64,000 bases of DNA from positions 118,702 to 182,701 of the forward strand of contig JAKPJZ010000075.1 of the NCBI GenBank assembly GCA_029553955.1, read 5' to 3'. This stretch comes from Chloroflexota bacterium (GTDB lineage: Bacteria > Chloroflexota > Anaerolineae > SpSt-313). Positions 25,248-63,764 of the stretch are shown piece by piece; positions within the stretch are counted from its first letter, which is position 1; each line of letters starts with the position of its first letter. The notes under the pieces were generated by a model, which was not told the DNA's origin, made no database searches, and saw nothing but the letters and a program-made list of their open reading frames with translations. The position numbers were made by a program, and so were the translations under genes.

Positions 25248-26642
25248 TCAGGACTTGGGCAAGTGGAGGGGGCGGCCCAAAGCCGCCAGGCCGGCTTCGG
25301 CCAGCGCTTCACCCAATGAGGGGTGGGGGTGGATGGTGGCGGCCAGTTCGTCGAGAGTCATTTCCAGGGTTAGCCCCAGGGCGCCCTCGAGCACGAGGTC
25401 CGACGCGTGCGCACCCACGATGTGTAGGCCCAGCAGCGCGCCGTAGCGCGCCTCGGCCACCACCTTGATAAAGCCGTCGACCTCGCCTTGGGCGATGGCC
25501 TTGCCGTTGCCGTTGAAGGGGAAGCGCCCCACGCGCACATCGTAGCCCTGCTCGCGCGCGGCCTGCTCCGTCAGCCCAACGCTCGCCGCCTCGGGCCTGG
25601 CAAAGATGCAGCTGGGCACCGCATCGTAGCGCATGCGCGCCTTGTGGCCGAGGGAACTCTCGGCTGCAACCGCGCCCTGGTGCATGGCCACGTGTGCCAG
25701 CATCGACCCGCCGGTCACGTCGCCCACCGCATAGATACCGGGCACGCTCGTGGCCATGTGCTCGTTGACCTGGATGCCTCTGCGGTCGTAACGCACGCCT
25801 GCAGCCTCGAGTCCTAGCCCCGCCACGTTGGGCCTGCGGCCTGTGGCCAGCAGCGCCTTGTCAGCCTCGACGATGACCTCGCCCTGTGGGCCCTGCAGGC
25901 GCGCCCGCAAGGCCCCACGGCCGGCCTCGATGGCCGTGATCTTGGTGCTGACGTGCACCTTCGCGCCCTGCAGGAGGAGGGCCGTGCGCAGTGTGTCGCC
26001 AACGTCGGCGTCTGCCAGCGGCGCCAGGCGCGGCAGCATTTCGACCACTGTCACCTGCGAGCCGAGGGTGGCAAAGAGGGTGGCAAACTCCAGTCCCACG
26101 GCGCCGCCGCCCACGACGAGTAGGCTCGCCGGCAGCGCCTCAAGGGCGAGGGCGCCGGTCGAGTCGAGCACGCCGGGCAGGTCGGCGCCTGCGATGGGGA
26201 GCGTTAGGGGGCTCGAGCCAGTAGCAATGACGATGCGCGGGGCGGCCCACGTCTGCATTCCGCCTGCCCCATCGACGGCTACCGTGCCCGGCCCACTCAG
26301 GTGCGCGTGGCCCTCCACCACGTCGACGCCGGCCCGACCCAGGAGCATGCGTACACCCCCTACGAGCTTGGCGACCACGTCGGCCTTGCGCGCCTGCATG
26401 GCCGGCCAATCGGCCTCGGGCTTGGCGGCACGGACGCCGAACTCGGCGGACCGGCTGACCACGTGATAGACCTCGGCGCTCGCGAGGAGGGCCTTGGTGG
26501 GGATGCAGCCTACGTTGAGGCATACCCCGCCCAGGTACTCTGCTTCCACCAGGGTCACGTGGGCGCCCAGTTGCGCGGCCCGTAGCGCGGTGATATAGCC
26601 GCCGGGCCCGCCGCCGATGACAATGAGATCCGTTGGCATCAT
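25248..26642 (-). CDS. lpdA: Dihydrolipoyl dehydrogenase (E3)
   Basis: A 464-aa flavoprotein disulfide reductase that reoxidises the E2 lipoyl group with NAD+. Seen in order: FAD motif LIVIGGGPGGYITALRAAQL, redox disulfide GGVCLNVGCIPTKAL, NAD motif LLVVGGGAVGLEFATLFATL, second FAD motif GIYAVGDVTGG and the C-terminal interface HPHPSLGEAL with the catalytic His. ATG 26642 (ATGATG) is preceded by GGAAGGGA; the open frame runs much further upstream into E2 without meaning. It starts 14 bases after the E2 stop and closes the dehydrogenase operon. Confidence 0.95.
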   Translation of the reverse strand: MMPTDLIVIGGGPGGYITALRAAQLGAHVTLVEAEYLGGVCLNVGCIPTKALLASAEVYHVVSRSAEFGVRAAKPEADWPAMQARKADVVAKLVGGVRMLLGRAGVDVVEGHAHLSGPGTVAVDGAGGMQTWAAPRIVIATGSSPLTLPIAGADLPGVLDSTGALALEALPASLLVVGGGAVGLEFATLFATLGSQVTVVEMLPRLAPLADADVGDTLRTALLLQGAKVHVSTKITAIEAGRGALRARLQGPQGEVIVEADKALLATGRRPNVAGLGLEAAGVRYDRRGIQVNEHMATSVPGIYAVGDVTGGSMLAHVAMHQGAVAAESSLGHKARMRYDAVPSCIFARPEAASVGLTEQAAREQGYDVRVGRFPFNGNGKAIAQGEVDGFIKVVAEARYGALLGLHIVGAHASDLVLEGALGLTLEMTLDELAATIHPHPSLGEALAEAGLAALGRPLHLPKS

Positions 26643-26656
26643 GTCCCTTCCATTTG

Positions 26657-27997
26657 TCATGCCAGGAGCAGGTATGGCTCTGCGATCAGTCGCGCGATGC
26701 GCTGCAAGAAGCGTGCGGCCGGGGCGCCGTCCACCAGGCGGTGATCGAAGGTGAGGCTGAGCCACAGGTGCTGGCGCACAGCGATTTCGCCGTCGACCAC
26801 GGCCGGTTGTGGCGCGATACGGCCCACGCCCAGGATGGCGCACTCCGGCAGGTTGATGATCGGCGTAAAGGCATCGATGCCGTAGGCGCCGAGGTTGGTA
26901 ATGGTAAAGGTGCCGCCCTTGAGCTCGTCGGGGCCGCTCCGACCCTCGCGGGCGCGGGCCACCAGGTCGCGCACCGTGCGCGCGATCTCTGCGACCCCCA
27001 GCCGGTCGGCATGGCGCACCACGGGCACGAGCAGCCCGCGTTCGGTATCGACGGCCAGGCCGACGTGCACCTCTTCGATCATGCGGATAGAGTCGCCCTC
27101 CAGGCGGCTGTTGACAAGGGGATGCTCGCGCAGCGCCCGCGCGCAGATGGCGATGAGCAGATCGTTGTAGCCGATGGCGTAGCCCAGGGCCTCAGCGTAG
27201 GCATCCTTGAGTCGTGTGCGCAGCTCCACGAGACGAGTTGCATCGACATCACTGGTCAGTGTGACGCACGCCGTCTCCCGCGCGCTCGCGGCCATGCGCT
27301 CGGCGATGCGCGCCCGCACCCCTGCCATGGGGATAATCTCCCCCGGGGTTGCCGCCACGGGCGCCGCAGCAGCCTCGACTGCACCTGCCTGGTCCACGTC
27401 GGCGCGGACGATGCGCCCGCCGGGCCCCGAGCCGGCGAGCGTGCTCAAGTCGACGCCGGCCTCGGCCGCCGCCTTGCGCGCCAGCGGCGTGGCCCGCGGC
27501 TGGGCCCCGGCAAAGGCGAGCACATCGGCCTGGATGATGCGGCCGCCGGGGCCGCTGCCGGTCACGCCGGCGAGGTCGAGGCCCCGTTCACGGGCCGCGC
27601 GGCGGGCGCGCGGCGAGGCGAAGGTCCGGGGTGCCCTCACCCCTGTCCCCTCTCCCACTGCGGGGGAGAGGGAAGTCGCGCCCGACCGGGCTGCTGCGCC
27701 GATGGGGTGCAAGGCACAGCCCACTATCTGCCCACCGGAGGGCGAGGGCAGCACATCACCAGGCTCGCCGATAAAGCCGACGACCGCGAGCACGGGCACC
27801 CTGGCACCCTGCGGCTGCAGGATCTTGAGCAGCCGGCCGGCTGCGGGGGCTTCGGCGTCGAGCACGGCCTTGTCGGTTTCGAACTGGAAGAGCACATCGC
27901 CCTTCTGGACCGTGTCGCCCTCGTGCACCAGCCAGCGCACGATGGTGCCCTCATTCATCGTCTCGCCGAGTTGCGGCAGGATCACCTCACGTATCAT
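26657..27997 (-). CDS. 2-oxoacid dehydrogenase E2 acyltransferase with two E3-binding domains
   Basis: A 446-aa core acyltransferase. The lipoyl domain spans residues 1-75, with lysine 43 in FQFETDKAVLD. A loose linker (75-125) is followed by two peripheral subunit-binding domains at about 126-161 (RARRAARERGLDLAGVTGSG) and 170-203 (ARKAAAEAGVDLSTLAGSG), then the catalytic domain with DHRLVDGAPAARF, where the His and Asp are active-site residues. One lipoyl domain and two binding domains is an unusual make-up. The linker codes through a palindromic GC repeat at 27634-27673. ATG 27997 overlaps the downstream end of E1 slightly offset (gap 4 bases). The acyl group could be acetyl or branched-chain; the sequence does not decide. 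Confidence 0.92.
   Translation of the reverse strand: MIREVILPQLGETMNEGTIVRWLVHEGDTVQKGDVLFQFETDKAVLDAEAPAAGRLLKILQPQGARVPVLAVVGFIGEPGDVLPSPSGGQIVGCALHPIGAAARSGATSLSPAVGEGTGVRAPRTFASPRARRAARERGLDLAGVTGSGPGGRIIQADVLAFAGAQPRATPLARKAAAEAGVDLSTLAGSGPGGRIVRADVDQAGAVEAAAAPVAATPGEIIPMAGVRARIAERMAASARETACVTLTSDVDATRLVELRTRLKDAYAEALGYAIGYNDLLIAICARALREHPLVNSRLEGDSIRMIEEVHVGLAVDTERGLLVPVVRHADRLGVAEIARTVRDLVARAREGRSGPDELKGGTFTITNLGAYGIDAFTPIINLPECAILGVGRIAPQPAVVDGEIAVRQHLWLSLTFDHRLVDGAPAARFLQRIARLIAEPYLLLA
27634..27673. repeat. CCCTCTCCC-type palindromic repeat inside the E2 linker
   Basis: CCCTCACCCCTGTCCCCTCT followed by CCCACTGCGGGGGAGAGGG forms a C-rich/G-rich hairpin of the kind usually found between genes in many GC-rich bacteria. 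Here it is read in frame, encoding roughly residues 106-124 (SLSPAVGEGTGVRA) of the flexible E2 linker. Confidence 0.5.
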
Positions 27998-28001
27998 CGC
28001 T

Positions 28002-30074
28002 TCACCGCCCCATGACCTTGCGGATGCCGGCGATGACCGACTCGGTCGAGGGCACGGCGGCGGCTTCAAGCGACTCGCTCATGGGCACCGGCACATCGGC
28101 CGCGGCGATGCGCACCATCGGTGCATCGAGGTAGTCGAACGCTTCCTCGTTGACCAATGCCATGATCTCGCCCAGGACGCTGCCGGTGCGGTAGGCCTCG
28201 GTGACCCCTACCAGGCGGCCGGTCTTTTTCACTGATGATACAATGGCCTCCAGGTCCAGCGGCTTGAGCGAGCGCAGGTCGATCACCTCGGCCGAGATGC
28301 CCTCGGCGGCCAGCTTTTCGGCGGCCTCGAGGGCGTGGTGCACCATGCGCGAGTAGGTGACCACGGTGACGTCGGAACCCTCGCGCTTGATATCGGCCAC
28401 CCCGAGGGGGATGACGTACTCTTCCTCGGGCACCGGGCCCTTGGTGCCATAGAGCATCTTGTGCTCGATGAACATGACCGGGTTGTCGCAGCGGATGGCG
28501 GCCTTGAGCAGGCCCTTGGCGTCGTAGGGGGTGGCGGGCATGACCACGTAGATGCCCGGAAAGTGCACCCACAGCGCCTCCAGACTCTGCGAGTGATGGG
28601 CGGCGATGCAGCGCCCGGCGCCACCCTCCGTGCGGATGACCAGGGGCACGGCCGTCTTGCCGCCGAACATGTAGCGGTTCTTGGCGCCCTGATTGGCGAT
28701 CTGATCCATGGCCAGGGGGGTAAAGTCAACATACATGATTTCGGCTACCGGTCGCAGGCCGGTCATGGCTGCGCCGACTGCAGCGCCGGCGATCGTGGCC
28801 TCGGAGATGGGCGTGTCGCGCACCCGGTCGGGGCCGAACTCGTCAAAGAGGCCGCGCGTGGCCCCGTAGGCGCCGCCGTAGCGGCCCACATCCTCGCCCA
28901 TGACCATGACGCGCGGGTCGCGCTGCATCTCCTCGCGCAGCGCTTCGACAATCGCCTGCCAGTAGGGGATCTGGCGCATGCCGCTGCTCTGCCGCACCTG
29001 CGCGCGCAGCCGCCCCTCAGCCTGCACCACCTCAGGCGTCCAGAAATCGGGGGCAAAAACATCGTGCGCGACTTCGGTCGCCGGCGGCAGGGGCGAGGCG
29101 AGGGCGAACTCGGTGGCGCGCTCGATGGCCTCCTGCGCGCGGGCAAGGACGGCGTCGATCTCCTCCTGCCCGGCGACCCCGGCCTCAACCAAGCGGCGCC
29201 CCAGGCGTGGGATGGGGTCGCGCTCGCGCCAGGCCTGCTCCTCCTCCCTGGTGCGGTAGACGCGGGGGTCCGAGCGCGAGTGGCCGAACCAGCGGTAGGT
29301 CTTGCACTCGACGAGCGACGGCCCCTCACCACGGCGGGCGCGCTCGGCGGCGCGGCGCACGGCCTCGCGGACGGCGAGGACGTCCATGCCGTCGACGACC
29401 TCGCCGGGCATGCCATAGGCACGGGCGCGGTCGGCGACATTGGGCACGCACGAGGCGTTAGCAAAGGGCACCGACATGCCGTAGAGGTTGTTCTCCACGA
29501 TGTAGACCACGGGCAGCTTCCACAACGCGGCCATGTTGAGCGACTCGTGAAAGTTGCCGGTCTGCGACGCGCCATCGCCAAAGAAACAGAGCGCCACCTG
29601 GCCGCTCTTGCGGTAGGTGATGGAGAGGCCGGCGCCGGTGGCCACCGGGATATTGCCGCCCACGATGCCGGTCGCGCCCAGGTTGCCGTGTGCCACATCG
29701 GCAATGTGCATCGAGCCGCCACGGCCCTTGCAGTAGCCGGTGGCCCGGCCGCACAGTTCGGCCATCATGCTGTTCAGATGCGCCTGGCGCGCCTCGGGGA
29801 TAGCAGCGTGGCGGTCGCCATGGGCGTGGCAATGGCCGTGGCCGCGATGCGTGCTGGTGATGATATCGTCGAGCCCGATGGCAGCGAGCGCGCCGACGGC
29901 TACCGCTTCCTCGCCCGCATAGAGATGCGAGGCACCCTTGATGACGTTACGGCCCAGGAGGTCGTAGACCTTTTCCTCGAAGGCGCGGATCTCGGCCATC
30001 TGCCGTAGCATGGTCAAGAGATCATCCTTGCTCAAGCCATCCATAACTGGGACTGCTTCTTTGGCTGACATCAT
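28002..30074 (-). CDS. 2-oxoacid dehydrogenase E1, alpha and beta subunits fused
   Basis: A 690-aa single chain. Residues ~1-330 are E1 alpha: RGHGHCHAHG, and the thiamine diphosphate motif starting GDGASQTGNFHE and closing with VYIVENN, plus the phosphorylation-loop-like YRWFGHSRSDPRVYRT. Residues ~345-690 are E1 beta: MVMGEDVGRYGGAYGAT, RVRDTPISEATIAGAAVG and VIDLRSLKPLD. It decarboxylates a 2-oxo acid and passes the acyl group to E2. Substrates could be pyruvate, acetoin (AcoAB-like) or branched-chain 2-oxo acids. In most bacteria the subunits are separate; fused forms are known in some lineages. ATG 30074 is preceded by AGGGAGA. E2 follows after four bases. Confidence 0.92.
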   Translation of the reverse strand: MMSAKEAVPVMDGLSKDDLLTMLRQMAEIRAFEEKVYDLLGRNVIKGASHLYAGEEAVAVGALAAIGLDDIITSTHRGHGHCHAHGDRHAAIPEARQAHLNSMMAELCGRATGYCKGRGGSMHIADVAHGNLGATGIVGGNIPVATGAGLSITYRKSGQVALCFFGDGASQTGNFHESLNMAALWKLPVVYIVENNLYGMSVPFANASCVPNVADRARAYGMPGEVVDGMDVLAVREAVRRAAERARRGEGPSLVECKTYRWFGHSRSDPRVYRTREEEQAWRERDPIPRLGRRLVEAGVAGQEEIDAVLARAQEAIERATEFALASPLPPATEVAHDVFAPDFWTPEVVQAEGRLRAQVRQSSGMRQIPYWQAIVEALREEMQRDPRVMVMGEDVGRYGGAYGATRGLFDEFGPDRVRDTPISEATIAGAAVGAAMTGLRPVAEIMYVDFTPLAMDQIANQGAKNRYMFGGKTAVPLVIRTEGGAGRCIAAHHSQSLEALWVHFPGIYVVMPATPYDAKGLLKAAIRCDNPVMFIEHKMLYGTKGPVPEEEYVIPLGVADIKREGSDVTVVTYSRMVHHALEAAEKLAAEGISAEVIDLRSLKPLDLEAIVSSVKKTGRLVGVTEAYRTGSVLGEIMALVNEEAFDYLDAPMVRIAAADVPVPMSESLEAAAVPSTESVIAGIRKVMGR

Positions 30075-30137: not shown

Positions 30138-30959
30138 CTATGCCATGGCCCACGCCTGCCGGACAAAACGCGTAGCAGCCAGTACCGCACCCACGCCCTG
30201 GCCGGATGCTTCCTCTATGCAGATCCAGCCGTCGAAGCGTGCCTTCTTGAGACTCCTAAAGAGAGCAGGAAATGGCACCACTCCAGTGCCAAGCAGCACG
30301 GGTTGCAGGGTATTGCGCATGCCCGTGTCGGCGGCGTGGACGCTGACCACTCGAGGTAGTGCCTTGGCCAACAGATCGAGAGGGTCCTGGGCGAAGGCTG
30401 TGGCATTGGCTGTGTCGAAATTGATGCCTAGGTCAGCTCTAGCAGTGCGCCGGACGATCTCTAGGAATATGTCTGGCGGCTGGGAAAAGTCCGTGTACCT
30501 CCACGCGCCGGGCCTGGCGTGGTTCTCATAGACCAGCGTAACGCCCGAGCCTCTGCTCGCCTCGGTCAGGCGAGTCAGCCCATCTACTGCCCAGATGATG
30601 CCCTGCTCGCGGCCGGTTTCCGGGTGGGCCTGGCCAGCAGTGACACGCATCAGATCCGCACCCAACTCGGCTGCCAGAGCGACGGCCTCTTTGGCACGCT
30701 CAAGTTCGTCTTGGCGTTGCTCAGCGTTGGGGTGGGTAAAGTCGGGATAGGTGGCGAGCATGGCTACGCGCATCCCAGCAGCTTCGACATCGCGCCGGTA
30801 CGCAGTCGCCGTAGCCACAGAGCGATCAGGTACGAAAAGGATGCTGAGGTCAATGGCATCAAGGCCGGCTTCCGCTCCGATCCGCGCCCACTCGGCCACA
30901 CTCATGCGGCCGGCAATGATTTCTCGGAAGAACGACACTGGCAGGCAACTAAGCCACAT
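30138..30959 (-). CDS. Sugar phosphate isomerase/epimerase-like TIM barrel protein
   Basis: A 273-aa protein of the xylose-isomerase-like TIM-barrel superfamily. Metal-binding strand ends are seen at DAIDLSI, TLVYENHARPGAW, LGINFDTANATAF, VVSVHAADTG and WICIEEASG; the last Glu and the His and Asp residues are the usual divalent metal ligands. ATG 30959 has GGAGGT six bases upstream; the open frame back to 31091 overlaps the transaldolase-like gene and reads like non-coding sequence. It is only distantly like the isomerase at 15146. It lies between a transaldolase-domain gene and the E1 gene, which suggests a sugar-derived intermediate. Confidence 0.78.
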   Translation of the reverse strand: MWLSCLPVSFFREIIAGRMSVAEWARIGAEAGLDAIDLSILFVPDRSVATATAYRRDVEAAGMRVAMLATYPDFTHPNAEQRQDELERAKEAVALAAELGADLMRVTAGQAHPETGREQGIIWAVDGLTRLTEASRGSGVTLVYENHARPGAWRYTDFSQPPDIFLEIVRRTARADLGINFDTANATAFAQDPLDLLAKALPRVVSVHAADTGMRNTLQPVLLGTGVVPFPALFRSLKKARFDGWICIEEASGQGVGAVLAATRFVRQAWAMA

Positions 30960-30978
30960 GGACTGACCTCCACAGGGA

Positions 30979-32712
30979 CTACGCACGTTCCCTACGGGCG
31001 AGAATCCGCTGCACAAAGGTGTCATAGACCTTGCAGAACTCGGCGAGCGTGGCATGAACTGGGAGCCAATCGGCCACTGCCTGCTCATCATCGAGAGTCA
31101 ACTCGTGGCTGGGCCGGAAACGCTCGTCGCCCTCCGATAGCCAATTACGGTCCCCAACGTAGTAGGCCTGCCTGAAGAGCTCGCTGTGGGCCAGGATGTC
31201 CAGGATCTCATCTGGTACCGGCCTGTCGATCCGCTGTGGATCAAGTTCCAATTGAGGCAGGGCGTCAAAAGCTCGGCGGACGTTCGGAAAGACGCTAAGG
31301 ATGCCGGTTCCCAGCGCTTCGGTGATGTCCAGAAAACTGCTGGGCAGATGGCGATAGTTCTCCCCCTCATAGATGCGCAGGGAAGCAATGAGGGGCTTGA
31401 GGCGGGCCAGATCATAGCCCCTTTCGACGAGCAGCCGCTGCAGCCGCTTGAGAACTGCGATGCCGGACCAGGCAGCAGCTTCGCGCAGCCGGGCCTCGAC
31501 GAGGCCCGAGGCCGCCAGCTCGGGCAGCTTGGCCAGCAACTCATCGCGCACGGGATAGGCGAGCCGGCCGCTCATGTGAGCCAGAGCAGAGAGGAGCGCT
31601 TGCCCCTCCTGGATAACCTCGGCGAAAGGCAGATGCTGGAACAGCGCAAAGTTGACGGTGATCGTGACGCCGATGCCTTGCTCTGTCAGGGCGCGGCAGG
31701 CCTGGAGGCCGGCCTTCGTCCCAGGCAACTTGAAGACGACATTGGGAACATCGCCGCCAAGCCTGTTGCGCAGTTCCGAGTAGTTGGTCTGGGCCTCCGA
31801 GAGCATTGCTGCCGCATCACCATGCTTCCTGGGATTGACCTGGAAGCACACATACCCTGTCTGCCCCGTGGTCAGCAGGAAGATAGGGCGCAAGAGCCGC
31901 ATATTGGCGAGGACAATCTCCAATGTCACCAACCGGGCCAGTGCGTCACCGTCAGCCTCCGGATACTCGGTGATGATCCGGTCGACGACGGGGTCCCAAC
32001 GCTCGTGGTCGGCCGTCCATGCCAGATCGACCAGGACGGGGTTGCAGGTTACAAAGGATGCTCCCAGGTACATGGCGTACTGGAGGAATGCCGCATAGTC
32101 GTTGCTGAATTCGGTAGGTGTCCGGCCAGCAAGGCACGCCGCGGTCACACGGCGGAGATGGCTTCGCGCTAACTCTGTGCTCAGATTGGTCACGTACTCA
32201 CCGATCGAGTCTCCGACCAGTGCCGCCGCTTGCCCTTGGGCGTCGTCCACCCGCTCGGCGTGCAATCGTGCCGCGGTCTCGGCACGCCACTCTGCCAGGA
32301 GCACTTCGGCCACTGCCGGGGCCCGACCCGCGAGTTCCACCGCGAGAGCATGAGCCCGATCGGCCTCGGCTGCAACCTGAGCATCAGCCAGGATCTGCTG
32401 CCCGTGGCGCTCTGCGTCCTGCAGGTTCCAGCGCGGCAGGGAGGAACGCAGCGCCAGGGCCAGGTCAGCCAGGAAGCGTATGGCGCTCGCCTGGGCACCT
32501 TTGTCCTCTGCCTCGAAGTCCAGCCGGATCCTTCCACAGACTGTCTCCAGACAGGGACACAAGTCAGCGGGTGAAGAAAAGAAGACCAGGCGCGCCACCG
32601 CCTCGTGCACCCGCGCTTGCGAGAGCAACGCCAGCACATCCATGTCTGAGAACATCTCCTGCCGCAGCAGTTCGCTACGTATCTCCCGCCTGAAGACTTC
32701 CGCTGTCGCCAT
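30979..32712 (-). CDS. Transaldolase-domain protein with long N-terminal extension
   Basis: A 577-aa protein. The C-terminal ~365 residues look like a class I aldolase/transaldolase barrel: LGASFVTCNPVLVDLAW matches the transaldolase start (usual form GVTTNPTL), and VVFKLPGTKAGLQACRALTE carries the likely Schiff-base lysine, followed by ITVNFALFQHLPFAEV. The first ~200 residues are helical and have no recognised domain; ordinary transaldolases are 215-390 aa. Transaldolase moves dihydroxyacetone units between sugar phosphates, but the changed first motif means the substrate may differ. ATG 32712 has AGGAGA eight bases upstream; ATG 32742 lacks one. It is 19 bases from the isomerase gene. Confidence 0.7.
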   Translation of the reverse strand: MATAEVFRREIRSELLRQEMFSDMDVLALLSQARVHEAVARLVFFSSPADLCPCLETVCGRIRLDFEAEDKGAQASAIRFLADLALALRSSLPRWNLQDAERHGQQILADAQVAAEADRAHALAVELAGRAPAVAEVLLAEWRAETAARLHAERVDDAQGQAAALVGDSIGEYVTNLSTELARSHLRRVTAACLAGRTPTEFSNDYAAFLQYAMYLGASFVTCNPVLVDLAWTADHERWDPVVDRIITEYPEADGDALARLVTLEIVLANMRLLRPIFLLTTGQTGYVCFQVNPRKHGDAAAMLSEAQTNYSELRNRLGGDVPNVVFKLPGTKAGLQACRALTEQGIGVTITVNFALFQHLPFAEVIQEGQALLSALAHMSGRLAYPVRDELLAKLPELAASGLVEARLREAAAWSGIAVLKRLQRLLVERGYDLARLKPLIASLRIYEGENYRHLPSSFLDITEALGTGILSVFPNVRRAFDALPQLELDPQRIDRPVPDEILDILAHSELFRQAYYVGDRNWLSEGDERFRPSHELTLDDEQAVADWLPVHATLAEFCKVYDTFVQRILARRERA

Positions 32713-32859
32713 CGTATCATTCTCCTCTTGATCGTCGTCCATAGCTTCAGGCCAGGCCTGCGCATGCGTCTCAATGCGCTGTCGGCTTGGCCAAAGCAGT
32801 GTCATCGGCCTGTCATCGTCAGGGGCCCATGAGACCCGATTTGCTGGGGCGGGGTGGTC

Positions 32860-54722: not shown

Positions 54723-55499
54723 TCAGCCTCCGATGATCCTTCCACCGTCGACGACGATGCACGCGCCGGTGACGTAGGCAGACTCATCCGAGGCCAGGTA
54801 GAGAGCAGCATAGGCGATATCCTCGGGCCGACCCATGCGGCCTAGGGGCGTCATGGAGCTGTTGGCCCTGACATATTCCTCACGGCTGGCGTAGAACGCC
54901 TCGATGAAGGGGTCGTTGCCCGGTGTCTCGATGGCGCCAGGGCAAACCAGGTTGGCCCGGATGTTGTGGCGTCCATAGTCCAGCGCGATGGACTTGGTCA
55001 GTTGCTGGAGGCCACCCTTGGAGGCCACGTACGCTGCAAAGCGGGGAAAGGCAATCAGGCCGCCGATGGAGGACACGTTTACGATCGAGCCTCCACCCTG
55101 GGCGATCATCGGCGGGATAGCATGCTTGCAAGCGACGAATGCAGCGCGCAGGTTTACTGCCAGAGTCTTGTCCCACTCGTCGACGGGCGTGTCGACAACC
55201 GGCTGGTAATTGCTCAGGGAGAAATACCCCCCATCGTTTACCAGGATATTCAGCTTGCCATAGATGCGCGAGGCTGCCTCAATCAGAGCCTGAACATCCT
55301 CAGGGTTGGCGAGATCGGCACGGACAAACGATGCTGCTCCACCAGCCTTGCGTATCTCCTCAACGACAGCATTGCCACGCTCCATGGACCGCCCCGACGC
55401 GACGATCATAGCCCCTTCGCGAGCGAAGACGGTGGCGATGGCGCGCCCAATCCCCGATGTCGCGCCGGTGACAACTGCAACCTTACCTGCTAGTCTCAT
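54723..55499 (-). CDS. Short-chain dehydrogenase/reductase (SDR)
   Basis: A 258-aa classical SDR. NAD(P) motif VVTGATSGIGRAIATVFA, NNAG-like ILVNDGG (Asp-Gly in place of Asn-Ala), catalytic Ser in VNVSSIGG and YVASKGG with Tyr and Lys, then the usual C-terminal PEDIAYAALYLASDESAYVT. It oxidises an alcohol or reduces a ketone; the cofactor is probably NAD(H). ATG 55499 with GAGGGAG upstream overlaps the oppF stop by four bases. It is likely to act on the product of the imported compound. Confidence 0.9.
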   Translation of the reverse strand: MRLAGKVAVVTGATSGIGRAIATVFAREGAMIVASGRSMERGNAVVEEIRKAGGAASFVRADLANPEDVQALIEAASRIYGKLNILVNDGGYFSLSNYQPVVDTPVDEWDKTLAVNLRAAFVACKHAIPPMIAQGGGSIVNVSSIGGLIAFPRFAAYVASKGGLQQLTKSIALDYGRHNIRANLVCPGAIETPGNDPFIEAFYASREEYVRANSSMTPLGRMGRPEDIAYAALYLASDESAYVTGACIVVDGGRIIGG

Positions 55500-56503
55500 C
55501 GATTGCACTCCCTCTCATGGACGGTGGGTGCTAGATGGCATGCTACTTGGTGGCCTGGAGCTACAGCCTGCAGCACGGGTTCCTCTTTGGAACAGAGTGG
55601 AAAACGAGCCGTCGGGCACCTAGTGTGGAAACGGCAACCAGATGGCGGGGCAGACGGGCTGGGCACTTCTCCCTTCAGGATCATACGTCTCCGGTACAGC
55701 GGCGAGTCTGGATCAGCGATTGGCACGGCGGAAAGAAGTGCCTGCGTATATGGATGTAGTGGCCTGCCAAAGAGCTCGTCGCGGCTCGCCAGCTCTACAA
55801 TCCTGCCGAGATACATCACCCCCACACGATGTGAGATGTGCCTGACCATTGACAGATCGTGCGAGATGAAGATCACGCTCAATTGGTACTTTCGCTGTAC
55901 CGACCTGAGCAGGTTGATGATCTGAGCCTGAATGGAGACATCGAGGGATGACACCGGCTCGTCGGCCACGATGAGCTCCGGGCGGAGCGAAAGTGCACGA
56001 GCGATGCCGATGCGCTGTTGCTGCCCCCCGCTCAACTGCACCGGCCAACGCGTGGCGATGTCGGGTGGCAGCCCGACCTGGGCTAGCAGGTCTTCCACCT
56101 GAGTGTCGACACTGCGGCCCGAGGCGAGGCGGTGCACCAACAAAGGCGTTCGCAGGATAGTGCCAATGGTTTGCCGTGGGTTCAGAGAACCCATCGGATC
56201 CTGGAAGATCATCTGGATCTGCTGTCGTGCCTGCCGAGCTGCGGTACCTCCTAGTGAGGCGAGGTCTTTCCCCTTGAATAGCAGCCGCCCTGTGCTGGGC
56301 TCCGTCAGCCGCACGATCAAGCGCCCCAGCGTAGTCTTGCCGCAGCCACTCTCGCCTACCAGACCGAGTGTCTCGTTGTGCCCGACCCAGAGATCCACCC
56401 CATCCACCGCCCGCACAAGAGCGCTGCGTCTCCCGAGCGCCTCGCGGATGGGATAGAACTTGGATACGTGTTCCAGCCGCAGAAGGGCTTCAGGCCCTGA
56501 CAT
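55496..56503 (-). CDS. oppF: Dipeptide/oligopeptide ABC transporter ATPase, OppF type
   Basis: A 335-aa ABC ATPase: Walker [14 protein letters not shown], signature LSGGQQQRIGIARALS, Walker B LIVADEPVSSLDVS and the C-terminal iron-sulfur-like Cys cluster region CRFHTRCPTA..CSKEEP. ATG 56503 gives the usual [15 protein letters not shown] start and overlaps the oppD stop by 14 bases. It works with OppD, OppB and OppC. Confidence 0.9.
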   Translation of the reverse strand: MSGPEALLRLEHVSKFYPIREALGRRSALVRAVDGVDLWVGHNETLGLVGESGCGKTTLGRLIVRLTEPSTGRLLFKGKDLASLGGTAARQARQQIQMIFQDPMGSLNPRQTIGTILRTPLLVHRLASGRSVDTQVEDLLAQVGLPPDIATRWPVQLSGGQQQRIGIARALSLRPELIVADEPVSSLDVSIQAQIINLLRSVQRKYQLSVIFISHDLSMVRHISHRVGVMYLGRIVELASRDELFGRPLHPYTQALLSAVPIADPDSPLYRRRMILKGEVPSPSAPPSGCRFHTRCPTARFPLCSKEEPVLQAVAPGHQVACHLAPTVHERECNR

Positions 56504-57506
56504 ATTTCGCCCTTTCGACTTCTTGCCAACGCCAACACGCGGAGGTATGTCGAGACCCGTCGACTTTGTGCTGTGGAGGTCGTTCTTCCCTGCAGTGATC
56601 GGTCGCAAAGTAGCAGCGAGGAGCAAAAGCGCAGCCTGCCGGGACATTGGCGAGATCGGGTGGAGTGCCTTCGATTGTCTCCAAAGTCTCGCTTATCGGA
56701 GCCGTCAACAGAGGGATCGATGCCAGGAGCCCTACTGTGTATGGGTGGCGTGGCCTGGAGTAGACGGCGTGGGCTGAGCCCATCTCTACGACCCTGCCAG
56801 CGTACATTACCAACACGCGGTCGGCCAGGCTGGCAACCACCCCGAGATCATGCGTGACCCACAGGACCGCCATCTGAAGATCCCTTCTGAGCTGAGACAC
56901 CAGATCAAGGATTTGCGCCTGGATCGTAACGTCGAGAGCCGTGGTCGGCTCGTCGGCCAGGACAAGATCGGGCTCACAACACAGCGACATGGCGATCATT
57001 ACACGCTGACTCATGCCACCGCTGAACTGGTGGGGGAACTGGTTCAGTCGTCGAGACGGCTCGGAGATGCCGACGCGCTCAAGCATCCTGACGGCACGCT
57101 CGTGAGCGGTCCGAGTATCCACCCCCATGTGCACGCGGATTGTCTCGGTGAGTTGTCGGCCGATAGACAGCACCGGGTTCAGGGATGACGTCGGGTTCTG
57201 GAAGACCATAGCCATGTGGCGGCCTCGCAAACGACGTCGCTCCTCCTTTGGCAGTTCGAGCAGGTTGCGCTCGCGAAACAGCACCTTGCCTGCGACCACG
57301 CGCCCTGGCGGCGGCACAAGTCCCATGATCGAGAGCGATGTCACGGTCTTGCCGCATCCCGACTCACCCACGATAGCGAGGCTCTCCCCCTCCGCAATAG
57401 AGAAGCTGACATCATCGACAGCTTTGACGACACCTCGCCGCGTCAGGAAGTACGTCTTCAGGCCATGCACCTCAAGCAGCGGAACTGAACACGCCGATTC
57501 TTCCAT
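56490..57506 (-). CDS. oppD: Dipeptide/oligopeptide ABC transporter ATPase, OppD type
   Basis: A 338-aa ABC ATPase: Walker [17 protein letters not shown], signature [15 protein letters not shown], Walker [15 protein letters not shown] and the C-terminal [14 protein letters not shown] cluster. ATG 57506 is preceded by GAGGGAGAAG. It pairs with OppF to power the permease. The frame is intact. Confidence 0.92.
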
Positions 57507-57519: not shown

Positions 57520-58425
57520 CTACTCCAAAAGCGCTCGGGGGTTGAGCAGGTCTTGCACAGCATCGCCGATTACTCCGAAACTCAGACAGACGAGAGTGAG
57601 CACAAGGCTTGGAATGATGGTGATATGTGGAGCTACTGACAGGAACTGCTTGCCATCGGCGATCATTGTGCCCCAGTCCGCCTGCGGTGGCTGGACGCCC
57701 AGACCCAGAAAGCTAAGGCCTGCGGTCGCGGTGATCATGATAGTGATGTCGATGCTAAACATGGTTACCGCTAGTGCCAAGACGTTGGGCATGATCTCCA
57801 CGAAGAGAATCCGAAGTGGGCCGTAGCCCAGAGCCCGTGCCGCATCGACAAAAGGCATCGTGGACAGCGAGAGAGTCACGCCCCGGATAAGCCGGACACG
57901 GGCTGGCGCCGTGCTGATGATCACCGCCAGCATGGCGTTCTCTAGTGAGGGCCCGAGAGCAGCCACGAGCGCAATGGCCAGGAGCATGAAGGGGAATGCC
58001 AGCACGACATCCACCAGGCCCATCAGCAAGCTGTCGAGGCGCCCCCCTACGTAGCCGGACACCAATCCGATGATGACGCCAATGACAGTAGCCGCCAGAG
58101 CTGGCACAACTCCAGCCAGGAGCGAAATGCGTCCGCCCCAGATCACGCGGCTCAGCAGATCCCGTCCGAAGCTATCGGTGCCCAGCAGATACTCACGGGT
58201 CCCGGGAGGGCGGAGGCGATCCACTGGCACCATCTTGGCTGGGTCGCGGGGGGCCACCCAGGGCGCGGAAACTGCAGCTACCACGACGATCAGCAGAAAC
58301 ACTATGGCCACGATGACCAACGGATTCTCACCGAGATAGACCACGACACGGTTTGAGCTTGCTCCACGCTCAGAACGCAGCACTCCTCGTGCCGCCCGCC
58401 CAGATACAGATGCATCACCTGCCAT
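57520..58425 (-). CDS. oppC: Dipeptide/oligopeptide ABC transporter permease, OppC type
   Basis: A ~301-aa permease. The segment REYLLGTDSFGRDLLSRVI and the EAA-type loop FVDAARALGYGPLRILFVEI are typical of OppC/DppC. ATG 58425 has GAGGAT upstream; ATG 58461 overlapping oppB is an alternative. It is followed by oppD after 13 bases. Confidence 0.92.
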   Translation of the reverse strand: MAGDASVSGRAARGVLRSERGASSNRVVVYLGENPLVIVAIVFLLIVVVAAVSAPWVAPRDPAKMVPVDRLRPPGTREYLLGTDSFGRDLLSRVIWGGRISLLAGVVPALAATVIGVIIGLVSGYVGGRLDSLLMGLVDVVLAFPFMLLAIALVAALGPSLENAMLAVIISTAPARVRLIRGVTLSLSTMPFVDAARALGYGPLRILFVEIMPNVLALAVTMFSIDITIMITATAGLSFLGLGVQPPQADWGTMIADGKQFLSVAPHITIIPSLVLTLVCLSFGVIGDAVQDLLNPRALLE

Positions 58426-59383
58426 ATCGGATCCTCGGATCAATGAATGCGTAGGAGACATCCACCAACAGGTTAGCGGCCACGTAGATCAGGGCAATGA
58501 GCAGGGTCCCTCCCTCAATAATCGGGTAGTCGCGCCTCAGAATGGCATCCACCATTAGCTTGCCCAGGCCAGGCCAGGCGAATACGCTCTCCACGAGCAC
58601 GGCTCCCGACAGCATGCTGCCGAACATGATGCCCGTGTTTGTCACCACGGGAATGAGGGCGTTGCGGAGAGCGTGCTGAAAGAGGACCATGCGCTCGTGT
58701 AGTCCCTTGGCGTGGGCCGTGCGGATATAGTCCTCCCGCAGCACTTCTAGTAGTGCAGAGCGAGCTACTCGAGCCGTTGCCCCAGCAGATGCGGCGGCCA
58801 TAGTCAACGTGGGCAGCACGAGATGCCAGAGCAGGTCCCCCGCACCAGGATTGCGTACAGAGTACATACCTACCGGGGGAAACAAGCGCACCTTCACAGC
58901 GAGAAGAATGATCAGAAAGAGCCCGAGCGAGAAAGGTGGGATCGTAGTCAGTATCAGTGGCGCCAGTCCGGTGACCTGCGCTAGGATGGGGTGCCGTCGG
59001 CCAACAGCCACAAAGGCCCCAAGTGCTCCCATCACAATGCCTGCCAGGACCGCTGTGAGCATTCCTCCCAAGGCCAGGATGGATGTCGCCTGGAAGGCGC
59101 GCCCCAGGGCCGCAGTCACTTGTTGACTGCTTTGGATTGAACGGCCAAGATTGCCATGCATTACGTTCCAGAGCCAGCGTAGGTACTGGACCGGTAGTGG
59201 TTGATCAAGTCCGTAAGCGTGACGGTACTCTTCGACCAGAGCCGGGTCGGCGACTTGCGCCGACGCCAACATGGTCTTGATGGGGTCGCCCGGCATCACC
59301 CGTGTGAGAAAGAAGACCAGAAGGGTCGTGCCAAACACGACTCCGATGGTTATGAACAGCCGGCGTAGCACAAATGTGCGCAT
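58415..59383 (-). CDS. oppB: Dipeptide/oligopeptide ABC transporter permease, OppB type
   Basis: A ~322-aa permease: N-terminal LRRLFITIGVVFGTTLLVFF, then RVMPGDPIKTML and the EAA-type loop YIRTAHAKGLHERMVLFQHA, all as in DppB/OppB. ATG 59383 has GGGAGT seven bases upstream; the ATG at 59398 is less likely. It follows the binding protein gene after a strong hairpin. Confidence 0.93.
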   Translation of the reverse strand: MRTFVLRRLFITIGVVFGTTLLVFFLTRVMPGDPIKTMLASAQVADPALVEEYRHAYGLDQPLPVQYLRWLWNVMHGNLGRSIQSSQQVTAALGRAFQATSILALGGMLTAVLAGIVMGALGAFVAVGRRHPILAQVTGLAPLILTTIPPFSLGLFLIILLAVKVRLFPPVGMYSVRNPGAGDLLWHLVLPTLTMAAASAGATARVARSALLEVLREDYIRTAHAKGLHERMVLFQHALRNALIPVVTNTGIMFGSMLSGAVLVESVFAWPGLGKLMVDAILRRDYPIIEGGTLLIALIYVAANLLVDVSYAFIDPRIRYGR

Positions 59384-59401
59384 GAGCAGAACTCCCATCC
59401 G

Positions 59402-59468: not shown

Positions 59469-61160
59469 CTACTTGATGGTGACGCCGGTCAGGTCGAGAG
59501 TGACATTCCCACGCACATGGAAGCCACTGACGCGCTCATTCCAGGCCATTGGCAAGGTCACCAGCGAGTTGGGCAGCATGACGGCCTCTTCGGTCACGAT
59601 GCGCTGGATCTCTTTGAAGTATTCGGCGCGCTTCTCGAGATCGAGTTCACTCAAGCTCTTCGTGTACAGATCCTCCACTTTGGGATCACTATAGAAGCAC
59701 AGGTTATACCCACCAGGCGGTATCGAACCCTTGGTGAAGCGGTCGAACACGAAGGAAGGATCAGGCAGGAACGCGATCCAGCCAAAGACAGTGGCCTCTG
59801 CGTTCGCGGGGTTTACGCCTCCGACCTTCTCGTCGAAGAACACCGCCGGATCGATCTTCACGATCTTGACGTCCATCCCGATGTCCCGCATGTTGGCCTG
59901 GAACAGTTCCGGGATTGGGGCCTCGGGTCCATAAAGCGTCCCCGCCTGAGCCAACCGGATCTCCAGGGGTTTGCCATCCTTCTCCCGGATGGTCCTGCCT
60001 GCAGGCAACGTCCAACCAGCCTGCTCTAGCAAGGTCTTCGCTTTCTCGACATCAAAGGTGTACTTGGTAAAGTTCGGCTCATAGGCATAAGCGCCTTCGA
60101 ACCATACGTTGTACTGGGCCTTTGTGGTGCCGTTGTTGAGAACGTTGGAGAGCGTCTCCCGGTCAAAGGCATAGTTGACGGCCTGGCGGACCAGTTTGTC
60201 GTTGAGCGGCGGCACTGAGGAGTTCAGGTTGATGTAGCCCAGCCAGCGAAGCGGGAACACATCTACCTTGATGCCTGGCGTGCTGCGCAGCGTCTCCAGC
60301 AGATCAGCCGGCGGCCGGGTGATGATATCCACGTTGCCGGCCAGGAGATCAGCCACCCTGGACTGATCGTCAGGATTGATCTTGAAGACGATCGTCTTGA
60401 CGCTGGGCTTTGCGCCCCAGTAATCATCAAACCGTTCCAGAACAATCTTGCTCTGAGGGTCAAACTCCGCCAATCTGTAAGGCCCGGTGCCAACGGCGTG
60501 GTTGGTGTACTCCTTGCCCCACTTCTCCATAGCGGTTGGGCTCTGGATGTAGGCCGCTTCCATGCTCATGCGCCAGAGGAAGATCGGGTCCTCGCGCGTG
60601 GCCGTGACCTTGACCGTGTAGTCATCGACCTTGTCGACGGACTTGATCGGCGTAAAGGACGCATACGGGAAGGTCCCCATACTGTGCAGTGGGTGCTTTT
60701 CGTCATAGATGCGCATCAGAGAGGTGACTACTGCATCGGCATTGAAGTCGGTGCCATCCTGGAACTTGACACCCTTTCGCAGGTAGAACGTGTAGGTCAA
60801 CCCGTCGGGATCGGCTTCCCACCTTTCGGCCAGCTTCGGCTTGACATCATTGGCCTGCTCATCAAATTCGACCAGGGTCTCGCTGATATGGAAGGCAGCC
60901 TTCTTGCCCGTGCTCTCGACGGTTTGGCTGGCATCCATGCCCCCGACATTCACGCGATCGAGGTTGACGACAAGTGTATCAGCCCCCGGCGATGCCTTCG
61001 TGGACTCCGGCGCGGGCGTGGCGGTCACTACCTTCTCGACCGTCTTCTCCTGGACGACCGTCTCCCTCACAATCTCGGGGGTGGGAACCGGGCCACAGGA
61101 GGCCAGCAGCACCCCTACCGATATCAGCAGCGCCACAGTCAGCAAGGATGGCTTTCTCAT
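59469..61160 (-). CDS. Extracellular solute-binding protein, family 5 (peptide type)
   Basis: A 563-aa lipoprotein: signal ending LISVGVLLASC with lipid Cys22, a linker RETVVQEKTVEKVVTATPAP of the kind common in Chloroflexota, then the family 5 fold: LAERWEADPDGLTYTFYLRKG, GTGPYRLAEFDPQSKIVLER and RQAVNYAFDRETL. It binds peptides, nickel chelates, glycosides or similar ligands and hands them to OppBCDF. ATG 61160 has GGGAGAG upstream; the longer open frame to 61307 is non-coding. It is separated from the aminotransferase gene by ~200 bases that should hold the operon promoter. Confidence 0.92.
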   Translation of the reverse strand: MRKPSLLTVALLISVGVLLASCGPVPTPEIVRETVVQEKTVEKVVTATPAPESTKASPGADTLVVNLDRVNVGGMDASQTVESTGKKAAFHISETLVEFDEQANDVKPKLAERWEADPDGLTYTFYLRKGVKFQDGTDFNADAVVTSLMRIYDEKHPLHSMGTFPYASFTPIKSVDKVDDYTVKVTATREDPIFLWRMSMEAAYIQSPTAMEKWGKEYTNHAVGTGPYRLAEFDPQSKIVLERFDDYWGAKPSVKTIVFKINPDDQSRVADLLAGNVDIITRPPADLLETLRSTPGIKVDVFPLRWLGYINLNSSVPPLNDKLVRQAVNYAFDRETLSNVLNNGTTKAQYNVWFEGAYAYEPNFTKYTFDVEKAKTLLEQAGWTLPAGRTIREKDGKPLEIRLAQAGTLYGPEAPIPELFQANMRDIGMDVKIVKIDPAVFFDEKVGGVNPANAEATVFGWIAFLPDPSFVFDRFTKGSIPPGGYNLCFYSDPKVEDLYTKSLSELDLEKRAEYFKEIQRIVTEEAVMLPNSLVTLPMAWNERVSGFHVRGNVTLDLTGVTIK

Positions 61161-61358
61161 GCGAGTCTCTCCCTTTCTTCTTCGTCTGCGATTCTGCTCG
61201 CCAAGGCAAGACGGACCGATTGCGGAGCCCTGAATTGCCTTCCTGGCTCCCCACAGCATGACAACGGCCGTCGGCTGGCCGGGCCGCTCACGAGAAGGCC
61301 CATCCACACCTCCCGCGCTGCCTAGCAGCGCACTCCAGCGGCTATCCCCCGCGCATTC

Positions 61359-62558
61359 CTACTTTTCGTGTGCCTGTGCAGCCCTGGCCAACCGACGGCC
61401 AGCCTCGGCTACCACCTCTGGGTCACCGCCGAAGGCAATGCGCACATGGTCTGTCGCCTCCATGGTCGACCCAGAGGTGGCAGGGCAATCCAGTTGGTGC
61501 AGGAGGTAGTGAGCAAAGCGATCGCCATCCACGCCGAGGCCAGCAACGTTCAGGAAGACGAAGGGTCCGCCCTGCGGCACGACACACGACAGCCCCGGCG
61601 TGCTGGCGACCGCCTGACAGAGGATGTCGCGGTTGCGCTGGAACTCTTGCGCCACTCCGTCTAGCCAGTCCGACGGGCCATTAATAGCTGCAGCGGCGGC
61701 TGCCTGGCAGACGGCATTGCCGTAGAGACACTGCCATTCCAGGACCTTGGTCATGGCCGCGATGGCTCGGGGTGGAGCCACTATGTAGCCCACCCGCCAT
61801 GCCGCCATAGCATAGCTCTTGGTGCAACTGCGGATAAGCACGGTCCGTGGCCCGACCGAAGGGATAGCCAGCATGCTCACGTGCGTGCGCCCGTCGTAGA
61901 TCATGCGGTCGTAGGACTCATCGGCCACAACCCACAATCCGTGTTCGGCCGCCAGCCGGGCCACGGCGCGCATGTCCTCCTCCGTCAGGACGTAGCCTGT
62001 CGGGTTCTCCGGAGTGTTGACGTAAATGGCACGGGTGTGGGGGGTGATGGCTGCAGCCAGGTGCTCATAATCCCAGCGATAACCCTGTGCCTCGTCCATC
62101 TGCACGTAGCGCAGCTGGACGCCCACGAGATCGGCTATGCCATCGAGGAAGAAACAGGGGGCCGGCACGAGCATTTCGTCGCCTGGGTCAAACAGCGCTG
62201 CAAAAGATACAAAGAGTGCCTGCATAGCGCCATTGGTTGCCAGCACCTGCTCGCCTGGGTCGATGGCAGCCCCCGTTTCTGCAGTGAGCCGGCGAGCGAT
62301 GGCTTGGCGCAGAGCGAGCAGGCCGCGCGAGGGCGGACTGTGCGGGTCGCGGGCAGCGGCGATGGCCGCCTCGATGACATGAGCGGGAAGTGGGCACTCA
62401 GGGTGGGGCAGGAGAGAAAGAACCTTGCGTCCCTGCTGTCGCAGCGCTGCGATATCGGCACTCACAACTCGAGAACCGACTCGGGAAAGCCGCTGCACTC
62501 GATCGCCAGTGTTGGGACTGGAGACGCCAGACTCGATAATGGCCACCTCGACCTCCAT
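61359..62558 (-). CDS. PLP-dependent aminotransferase class I/II
   Basis: A 399-aa protein of the aspartate aminotransferase fold. YVNTPENPTGYVLTEEDM, WVVADESYDRMIYDG (Asp and Tyr of the PLP site) and RSCTKSYAMAAWRVGY (Schiff-base lysine) are in place, and the C-terminal HVRIAFGG carries the carboxylate-binding Arg. It moves an amino group between an amino acid and a 2-oxo acid; the donor is unknown. It starts near 62558 without a strong SD. It lies between the regulator and the peptide transporter, so it may process the amino acid released by the peptidases. Confidence 0.88.
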   Translation of the reverse strand: MEVEVAIIESGVSSPNTGDRVQRLSRVGSRVVSADIAALRQQGRKVLSLLPHPECPLPAHVIEAAIAAARDPHSPPSRGLLALRQAIARRLTAETGAAIDPGEQVLATNGAMQALFVSFAALFDPGDEMLVPAPCFFLDGIADLVGVQLRYVQMDEAQGYRWDYEHLAAAITPHTRAIYVNTPENPTGYVLTEEDMRAVARLAAEHGLWVVADESYDRMIYDGRTHVSMLAIPSVGPRTVLIRSCTKSYAMAAWRVGYIVAPPRAIAAMTKVLEWQCLYGNAVCQAAAAAAINGPSDWLDGVAQEFQRNRDILCQAVASTPGLSCVVPQGGPFVFLNVAGLGVDGDRFAHYLLHQLDCPATSGSTMEATDHVRIAFGGDPEVVAEAGRRLARAAQAHEK

Positions 62559-62746: not shown

Positions 62747-62759
62747 ACCTGAAGAGACT

Positions 62760-63764
62760 CTACACCCTACTTAGAATTCTCTTTACTTCCTCTCGCAACA
62801 TCTCCAGTGAGGCTTCATCCAACACGTTGGCCCACTGGATGATCCGCACACGGCTAGGAATAAGGTCGCTCACCGCATGGATGTTCTCGGGCTGCACGAT
62901 GGCCACATCGTAGTCAGCCAGACGCTCAGCAACGCCAGCCTGTCCTGGGTACACATAGACTGGCCTGAGCTCTATTGGCAGATCGACTCGCTGCAGGACC
63001 TGTAGCAGACTGTTCATCATCCGCTCGCTGTAGGAGTCCTGGTGTACGAACATGACTGCCACGCGGCTACCCTTCCGTAGCTTGGCGAGGCGCGCGACTA
63101 CGTCGAGATGTGGTCGGATGGTGATAGCCAGAAGAGCGATGTTTCGCCGGGCGCCCAGTTTCTGCAGGGCCCGACGGACCTCCGTTAAGTGAAAGAAGGG
63201 CGATACGACCAGGTCGGCGTGCTGCACCACCTCCGATGCATGTGCTGGGTTCTCGTCAAACTCGGTCAAGAGGAGGGGCAAGATCTCAACCTCTAACTCG
63301 CGACCCAGTTCCTTTGTGTAGTAGCCCAGCCTGTCGGCATTGCATTCCACGAGGGCAACTCGCACGACTTGAGTACTGTGGGCATTGCGATGTGAGTGCA
63401 CGCGCAACATCATGAGGGAGAGGAGTTCGGCTTTGCTCATCCCGCCGTCGAGGGCCTCCGCAATCACATCGTCGAGCTTCGGAACGATACCATTGGCTGT
63501 GGAGCCATTGACGTAGGCTGGGGCAGGCGGATGGTCAGCCACAAAGGTGCCCTTGCCCGGCCGGAACACCACAAACGATTCGTCGCGTAGCTCACGATAG
63601 GCGCGCAGAATCGTATTGCGATTGACTTGTAGATTCTGACTAAGCAGTTCAGCGGATGGCAGTGGCGCGTTGGGCGGCAGGTCCCCGCCGTAGATCAAAT
63701 ACTTGATCTGCTCTCTGAGTTGAACGTAGATGGGGATCGAACTCTCGGTGTCGACCTGCAGCAT
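62760..63764 (-). CDS. GntR-family transcriptional regulator
   Basis: A 334-aa regulator. The N-terminal winged helix reads IYVQLREQIKYLIYGGDLPP, LPSAELLSQNLQVNRNTILR and FVVFRPGKGTFVADHPP, typical of GntR. The C-terminal ~200 residues (RVALVECNADRLGYYTKELG, LVVSPFFHLTEVRRAL, GSRVAVMFVHQDSYSERMM) look like a periplasmic-binding-protein-type effector domain rather than the usual FCD or UTRA. It is the first gene of the minus-strand supercluster and the obvious candidate regulator of it. It has its own promoter just upstream with direct repeats at the expected start of transcription, which suggests self-control. Confidence 0.9.
   Translation of the reverse strand: MLQVDTESSIPIYVQLREQIKYLIYGGDLPPNAPLPSAELLSQNLQVNRNTILRAYRELRDESFVVFRPGKGTFVADHPPAPAYVNGSTANGIVPKLDDVIAEALDGGMSKAELLSLMMLRVHSHRNAHSTQVVRVALVECNADRLGYYTKELGRELEVEILPLLLTEFDENPAHASEVVQHADLVVSPFFHLTEVRRALQKLGARRNIALLAITIRPHLDVVARLAKLRKGSRVAVMFVHQDSYSERMMNSLLQVLQRVDLPIELRPVYVYPGQAGVAERLADYDVAIVQPENIHAVSDLIPSRVRIIQWANVLDEASLEMLREEVKRILSRV

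Follow-up and report, generated by a model that had tools for sequence, protein, structure and literature searches.

A co-directional gene cluster of a Chloroflexota bacterium combines a peptide-type importer, M24-family proteins with altered residue sets, and an MttB-superfamily protein

Organization of the gene cluster

In this work, we examined 64,000 nucleotides (nt) from a Chloroflexota bacterium (assembly GCA_029553955.1, here G000), namely, positions 118702-182701 of contig JAKPJZ010000075.1 (here C150); this whole stretch is referred to as the window. The subject is a cluster of 31 open reading frames (ORFs) at window positions 25,248-63,764, every one on the minus strand (Table 1), which we tentatively read as a composite catabolic island. 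Domains were assigned by Pfam and NCBIfam profile scans of the 31 proteins. An earlier note on this DNA, made from the sequence alone, had described about 32 minus-strand genes with mostly small gaps or overlaps; the shared direction holds and the count is 31, with 20 of the 30 gaps being shorter than 50 nt or overlapping. The largest overlaps are artifacts of taking the longest ORF, and five gaps of 108-303 nt divide the cluster into blocks.

The scans agree with the domain content that the note had listed, including MttB, two UroD, LarA, and transaldolase (TAL) domains; a TauE/SafE membrane protein had been overlooked. Ten hydrolase-family proteins are encoded (four M24, two M19, and one each of the M20, M42, CehA/McbA-family, and MBL-fold types). 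Two ATP-binding cassette (ABC) importers are present, as had also been claimed. The Opp set is complete (SBP5, OppB, OppC, OppD, and OppF), and the second importer consists of an SBP_bac_1 binding protein and two permeases, with no ATPase for it within the run.

The source genome comprises 272 contigs (completeness 91.8%, contamination 8.2%). The window reaches to the end of contig C150 (182,701 bases), beyond which the cluster may extend upstream of the GntR gene. This gene is probably a separate transcription unit because it is preceded by a promoter-like site (11/12; 63,840-63,812) and followed, before the aminotransferase gene, by a hairpin of 13 pairs with a T-rich tail (62,657-62,628), which may be a terminator or an operator. 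Promoter- and terminator-like sites are overall about as numerous as in shuffled sequence, such that any single one is weak evidence. The G+C content gave no clear border that would mark a horizontal acquisition.

Table 1. Features of the cluster in order of transcription, with positions in the window.
Feature	Position	Strand	Basis or remark
GntR-family regulator	62760..63764	-	PF00392 helix-turn-helix plus ~250 amino acids without Pfam match
Pyridoxal phosphate (PLP) aminotransferase (class I/II)	61359..62558	-	Profile scans
SBP5, Opp-type solute-binding protein	59469..61307	-	Profile scan; 39% to G537 copy
OppB permease	58415..59398	-	Profile scan; G537 counterpart
OppC permease	57520..58461	-	Profile scan; G537 counterpart
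OppD ATPase	56490..57506	-	Profile scan; G537 counterpart
OppF ATPase	55496..56647	-	Profile scan; G537 counterpart
SDR oxidoreductase	54723..55508	-	Profile scans
MBL-fold hydrolase	53806..54762	-	Profile scans
UroDb, URO-D superfamily	52521..53768	-	PF01208; H285, D287 conserved in relatives
M24d	51375..52514	-	D-E-H-H-E-E (Glu for second Asp ligand)
CehA/McbA-family metallohydrolase	49918..51387	-	NF038032, 182 bits, cut-off 80
M24c	48598..49740	-	D-D-H-H-E-A (Ala for last Glu ligand)
M19b, dipeptidase-family	47480..48592	-	Profile scan; CHDH motif
PermF, ABC permease	46491..47432	-	Profile scan
PermG, ABC permease	45643..46494	-	Profile scan
SBP1, SBP_bac_1 binding protein (sugar type)	43939..45339	-	Profile scan
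UroDa, URO-D superfamily	42703..43830	-	PF01208; H261, H263 conserved in relatives
M24b	41499..42683	-	Canonical D-D-H-H-E-E; 48% to G537 copy
M24a	40298..41533	-	D-D-H-N-E-E (Asn for second His)
MttB, non-pyrrolysine MttB-superfamily	38844..40286	-	PF06253
M42, aminopeptidase-family	37746..38828	-	Profile scan
TauE/SafE membrane protein	36767..37687	-	Profile scan
M19a, dipeptidase-family	35440..36570	-	Profile scan; CHDH motif
M20, ArgE/DapE-family deacylase	34181..35437	-	Profile scans
LarA-family (nickel-pincer-type) hydroxyacid racemase/epimerase	32860..34146	-	Profile scans; LarC on C77
TAL, transaldolase fold plus N-terminal helical domain	30979..32805	-	True start likely near residue 31
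APe2, xylose-isomerase-like TIM barrel	30138..31091	-	Profile scan; 65% to G025 copy
E1 (fused alpha-beta), 2-oxoacid dehydrogenase	28002..30074	-	Profile scans; paralog on C52
E2 lipoyl acyltransferase	26657..28069	-	Profile scans
E3 dihydrolipoamide dehydrogenase	25248..26843	-	Profile scan

Intact and altered M24 proteins

All four M24 proteins of the cluster have the M24 domain of the prolidase/aminopeptidase P/creatinase fold, and M24c aligns to prolidases across the catalytic domain. Pairwise identity is 42% between M24a and M24b and 65% between M24c and M24d. Residue positions were taken from a mutual alignment of M24a-d and from alignments of solved prolidases with M24c and with one relative. 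The canonical set is D-D-H-H-E-E, in which the second His has a catalytic role and the other five positions are metal ligands. Three of the four copies deviate from it, and M24b alone has all six positions intact. The five ligand positions are also intact in M24a, which has Asn in place of the second His; this His is kept in M24c and M24d, which have Ala for the last Glu and Glu for the second Asp, respectively.

Deviating sets also occur among relatives in the protein database. Among 120 listed of 123 (own entries included), the full set is found in 47; another 39 keep the five ligands with the second His changed, the ligand positions themselves differ in 28 (for example, VDHDET, LEHSET, and IDHDEG), and six are other or cut. 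The residue states track clades, with nine changes across the 109 rows of a quick-search tree (rows shorter than 350 amino acids and own database entries left out; long-branch warning for P0238, P0239, and P0201), and altered sets make up clades of their own. Four contig sizes hold two M24 relatives each, where assignment to one contig is indirect, by identical size in nt. Three of these pairs are DDHLEE with DDHHEE, and both copies are altered at size 41263 (IDHDEG and DDHNEE). In genome G537, which belongs to the same phylum and another class, the M24b-type copy is intact and the M24c/d-type copy has IDHDET. Six genomes of genus g231 have one M24c/d-type match each, with an intact residue set in all six.

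A pair rule by which M24c and M24d decay in a complementary way was rejected, as relatives show other patterns. A strict rule of one intact plus one altered copy fits three of the four same-size pairs and fails for size 41263. With 47 of the 120 listed relatives being intact, three intact/altered pairs are weak statistics, and the clade structure weighs more. The altered copies may act as partners of intact ones.

At the g231 loci (L145-L155), an ORF of 550-557 amino acids adjoins the intact M24c/d-type gene in five genomes, and the neighbor in G441 is a thiamine diphosphate-dependent enzyme. Window positions 17306-23346 encode a further M24 protein (22066-23346) with the set DDHVEE beside a branched-chain-type ABC importer, of which the binding protein and the first permease have one in-frame stop each; this permease also has a poorly matching start. 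For the other hydrolases, M19a, M19b, and the G537 M19 protein have an HDH motif at the place of the HxD motif that is usual in M19 dipeptidases; the printed alignment with a solved dipeptidase does not extend to this motif. A PDB sequence search gave no match for CehA or UroDb.

MttB and the URO-D superfamily proteins

MttB matches PF06253 with 280 bits (cut-off 25; profile positions 29-494 of 500) and stays below the equivalog cut-off of TIGR02369 for trimethylamine MttB (344 vs. 525 bits). Its reading frame has no internal stop and therefore no pyrrolysine codon. The closest solved relatives are 2qne (deposited as a putative methyltransferase) and 9yce (named glycine betaine methyltransferase). 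This near full-length PF06253 match and lack of pyrrolysine are likenesses to the MttB-superfamily quaternary amine methyltransferases MtgB, MtpB, MtcB, and MtyB. Unlike in those systems, MttB is flanked by peptidase-family genes (M42 and M24a, at gaps of 15 and 11 nt), with no PF02607 protein on the contig. According to one study, known MttB relatives have a cognate corrinoid protein as their methyl acceptor, the partners of MtyB are the corrinoid protein MtqC and MtqA, and the function of most superfamily members without pyrrolysine is in question (PMC8604678).

For the corrinoid protein, PF02607 was the only profile searched; it has nine matches genome-wide and none on C150, which ends upstream of the GntR gene. 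A partner of MttB may therefore act in trans, lie past the contig end, or be of a kind that PF02607 misses. Two of the nine matches adjoin other MttBs, on C230 and C69, and three of the five MttBs in this genome, including the window copy, have no such match alongside. The two others of these three (L036 on C230 and L038 on C69) have an internal or end position in SBP5/Opp gene runs. The MtgBCD system of aerobic marine bacteria likewise has an MttB-family protein, which serves in betaine demethylation, and its description calls the cobalamin protein MtgC distinct from other known ones (PMC12478193). The partner of MttB may be of the MtgC kind, PF02607 being the only profile scanned. The Pfam matches of the 31 cluster proteins include no Ram-type protein.

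UroDa and UroDb match PF01208 with 27.9 and 54.9 bits (cut-off 23.9), and both miss TIGR01463 for MtaA/CmuA (26.1 and 28 bits; cut-off 235.4). The HxC zinc motif is characteristic of MtaA/CmuA methyltransferases. H261-x-H263 of UroDa and H285-x-D287 of UroDb are conserved in the alignments, which cover their own relatives. Both proteins are distant URO-D members and have a putative role in methyl transfer. Similar to the Type 1 mlp clusters of UroD-family methyltransferases, more than one URO-D superfamily protein is encoded per cluster; different from them, where a corrinoid protein and Ram/RACE belong to the cluster, the window has no PF02607 match and both proteins are far under the mtaA_cmuA cut-off.

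Sugar-acid-type enzymes and the dehydrogenase complex

TAL scores 60 bits over a cut-off of 27, and transaldolases are its top fold matches. The predicted model (predicted local distance difference test score 91.5) has an extra helical N-terminal domain. K359 is invariant in 40 of 40 aligned rows, and we take it to be at the position of the Schiff-base Lys, the hallmark of the transaldolase family. Ten TAL loci were fetched, of which one is from G000 itself and one is a distant partial match. UxaE, known from hexuronate catabolism with UxaE/UxaC, adjoins TAL in six of them, and in two (L091 and L094) a single open frame encodes both TAL and an iron alcohol dehydrogenase; these associations point to sugar acids. 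The TAL/UxaE pair of G000 lies on C123, so the TAL of the window is a paralog. In contrast to the hexuronate operons, its neighbor is APe2, and UxaE is absent from the Pfam matches of the 31 cluster proteins. The TAL-UxaE neighbors (L089, L090, L091, L092, L093, and L095) are a candidate hexuronate pathway variant in their own right, and the iron alcohol dehydrogenase is a separate gene beside TAL in L089 and L090.

LarA has both Lar_N and LarA_C domains and scores below every LarA equivalog cut-off listed. It would need the nickel cofactor, and a LarC gene is present elsewhere in the genome. E1, E2, and E3 occur together as in a complex of the pyruvate/acetoin type, with the E1 alpha model below and the E1 beta subfamily model above cut-off. 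The E1 paralog on C52 is 52% identical, so the E1-E3 genes of the window need not encode the housekeeping complex.

Recurrence of parts of the gene set

The earlier note had named co-occurrence of these genes in related genomes as the test of its interpretation. In the searches made here, the set as a whole was not found elsewhere, and sub-modules do recur. In the distant genome G537, an Opp importer, M24b-type and M24c/d-type proteins, and M19 are found within 10.5 kb on contig C391 (identities: SBP5 39%, OppB 43%, OppC 50%, OppD 48%, OppF 47%, M24b 48%, M24c/d-type 47%, and M19 38%), with a D-2-hydroxyacid dehydrogenase adjoining M19. In G025 (contig C17), one strand encodes, in order, PermF, PermG, a weak MttB-type match, MttB (36%), a class III aminotransferase, AP_endonuc_2, URO-D, APe2 (65%), TAL (57%), an Asp/Glu racemase, DUF5107, and an SDR. 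Contig C94 of G509 has an M24b-type protein (204 bits) with a weak UroDa-type match and PermF/PermG.

In the protein database, five MttB relatives are 75-82% identical (plus one own entry), after which identity drops to 54%. These five are on contigs of 41263, 2198, 2990, 14283, and 3208 nt. Size 41263 combines MttB (80%) with M24 relatives (68% and 43%), and size 14283 combines MttB (77%) with an M24c/d relative (67%); two such coincidences of MttB and M24c/d were seen against 0.05 expected for five sizes. MttB (82%) and TAL (59%) share size 3208 with the same source and member count. Sizes shared by TAL and M24 (3090, 4036, and 4086; 0.8 expected) were not used, with sources agreeing for 4036 only.

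Genome surveys, in which four candidates were scored per genome, covered 396 genomes of the class for UroDa and M24d and 400 of the phylum for M24d. UroDa relatives (E ≤ 1e-25) were found in 36 of the 396 class genomes; of 100 genomes, 28 have a UroDb relative (E ≤ 1e-20). G000 is included in both counts. A UroDa-type gene near LarA and weak APe2-type matches is a recurrent set (L106 and L114, the latter also with a membrane transport protein). Contig C28 of G192 (L100-L102, L121, and L122) has several URO-D-type matches, many SDRs, several ABC importers, and E1/E2 over 85 kb, mostly co-directional. Among plasmids, MttB has 194 records, of which the 15 listed are 28-35% identical, and three neighborhoods contain betaine-type or oxidoreductase genes with no annotated M24, M19, UroD, or TAL. 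UroDb has no plasmid match and UroDa one partial match; the plasmid matches of M24d (1,296 records; at most 32% identity among the rows listed) were too general to use.

Possible function of the cluster and competing explanations

The explanation that we favor, and hold tentatively, is a composite catabolic island. An amide-linked compound would enter through the Opp importer and be cleaved by the M24/M19-family hydrolases; MttB would strip N-methyl groups by way of a corrinoid protein encoded elsewhere; and a sugar-acid-like part would be degraded by the aldolase-, epimerase-, and LarA-family enzymes, yielding a 2-oxo acid for the encoded E1-E3 complex. The note had suggested a methylated, amide-linked substrate; such a compound fits and is likely, and one compound may feed all three modules. 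The substrate, the order of steps, the methyl acceptor, shared transcription, and the partnership of altered with intact M24 copies are what we infer, on top of the observed gene content, order, and direction, the recurrence of sub-modules, and the M24 residue differences.

Several observations weigh against this proposal. The complete gene set was not found at a second locus in the searched genomes, and M24d relatives (E ≤ 1e-40) are present in one of the 396 class genomes, which is G000 itself, and in eight of the 400 phylum genomes (own included). At E ≤ 1e-30, there is no MttB in G537 or the six g231 genomes; as G537 has the hydrolase/importer module, this module does not always come with demethylation. 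Conversely, none of 16 MttB loci in Chloroflexota metagenome-assembled genomes (E ≤ 1e-8; 40-48% identical; 3.9-21 kb) has M24, M19, UroD, LarA, or TAL nearby. MttB, M24, and M19 are absent from all 12 UroDb-centered stretches, and MttB is absent from 20 stretches, most of them centered on UroDa, and present in one of the ten TAL loci. The size matches of MttB and M24 hold among the 120 matches listed and are indirect, contigs being identified by exact size in nt. The second E1 leaves the role of E1-E3 open.

An explanation that is nearly as likely as a composite island is that adjacent modules have separate substrates. In its possible concrete form, Opp and the M19, M20, M24, and M42 proteins recycle ordinary peptides beside unrelated operons of MttB/UroD and of TAL, LarA, and the pyruvate dehydrogenase-like genes. 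The importer/hydrolase module of G537 without an MttB match, the MttB loci elsewhere without these hydrolases, and the five larger gaps that split the cluster all agree with such a peptide-scavenging locus, whereas the wedging of MttB between M42 and M24a at very short gaps and the two cases of MttB and M24c/d relatives on contigs of the same rare size do not.

Two further alternatives are improbable. A single small compound, either a quaternary amine or a guanidino compound of the betaine or creatine type, could be the target of MttB, the UroDs, and the M24s alike; the altered M24s would then be creatinase-like amidinohydrolases that are metal-independent, as creatinase is. The solved MttB relatives 9yce and 2qne, the creatinase and ectoine hydrolase among the M24-fold matches, and the 28 listed M24 relatives without canonical residues at metal-ligand positions fit this idea. 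However, creatinase and ectoine hydrolase score well under prolidases, M24b and the six g231 copies retain the full residue set, and the sugar-type importer, TAL, and LarA are left unexplained. With similarly small probability, the core may be UroD, LarA, APe2, TAL, and SDR acting on a methoxylated or sulfonated sugar acid, with TauE exporting the sulfur product. UroDa relatives near LarA and weak matches of the APe2 type (G236 and C140 of G000), the massing of UroD, SDR, and sugar-type ABC genes in G192, and a TAL with UxaE, UxaC, and URO-D in G082 are consistent with it. It leaves the four M24, two M19, M20, M42, CehA, and MttB proteins unexplained, no sulfonate-cleaving enzyme is among the Pfam matches of the window, and TauE/SafE is a broad family.

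Significance

The novelty lies in the gene combination and the M24 sets, and not in a new class of system. For the M24 sets, a wider proposal that we consider rather unlikely is that Chloroflexota and other uncultured bacteria have paralogous M24 sets in which an intact copy works with copies altered at metal or catalytic residues. Such sets would be obligate hetero-oligomers or metal-poor hydrolases with a new specificity. They would be coupled to an Opp importer, at some loci also to an MttB demethylase, and would act on a methylated amide compound that has so far not been recognized as a nutrient. Creatinase is a case of the M24 fold being repurposed away from the usual metal site. PA2G4, an M24 pseudoenzyme reported from Leishmania, is another; no report of paired enzyme/altered-copy M24 sets in bacteria was found in the part of the open-access literature searched. 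The altered M24 clades would add to these few cases and might represent such paired sets in bacteria. The cluster itself is a candidate gene set for a missing nutrient, in which a non-pyrrolysine MttB is linked with specific hydrolases and an importer of the peptide type.

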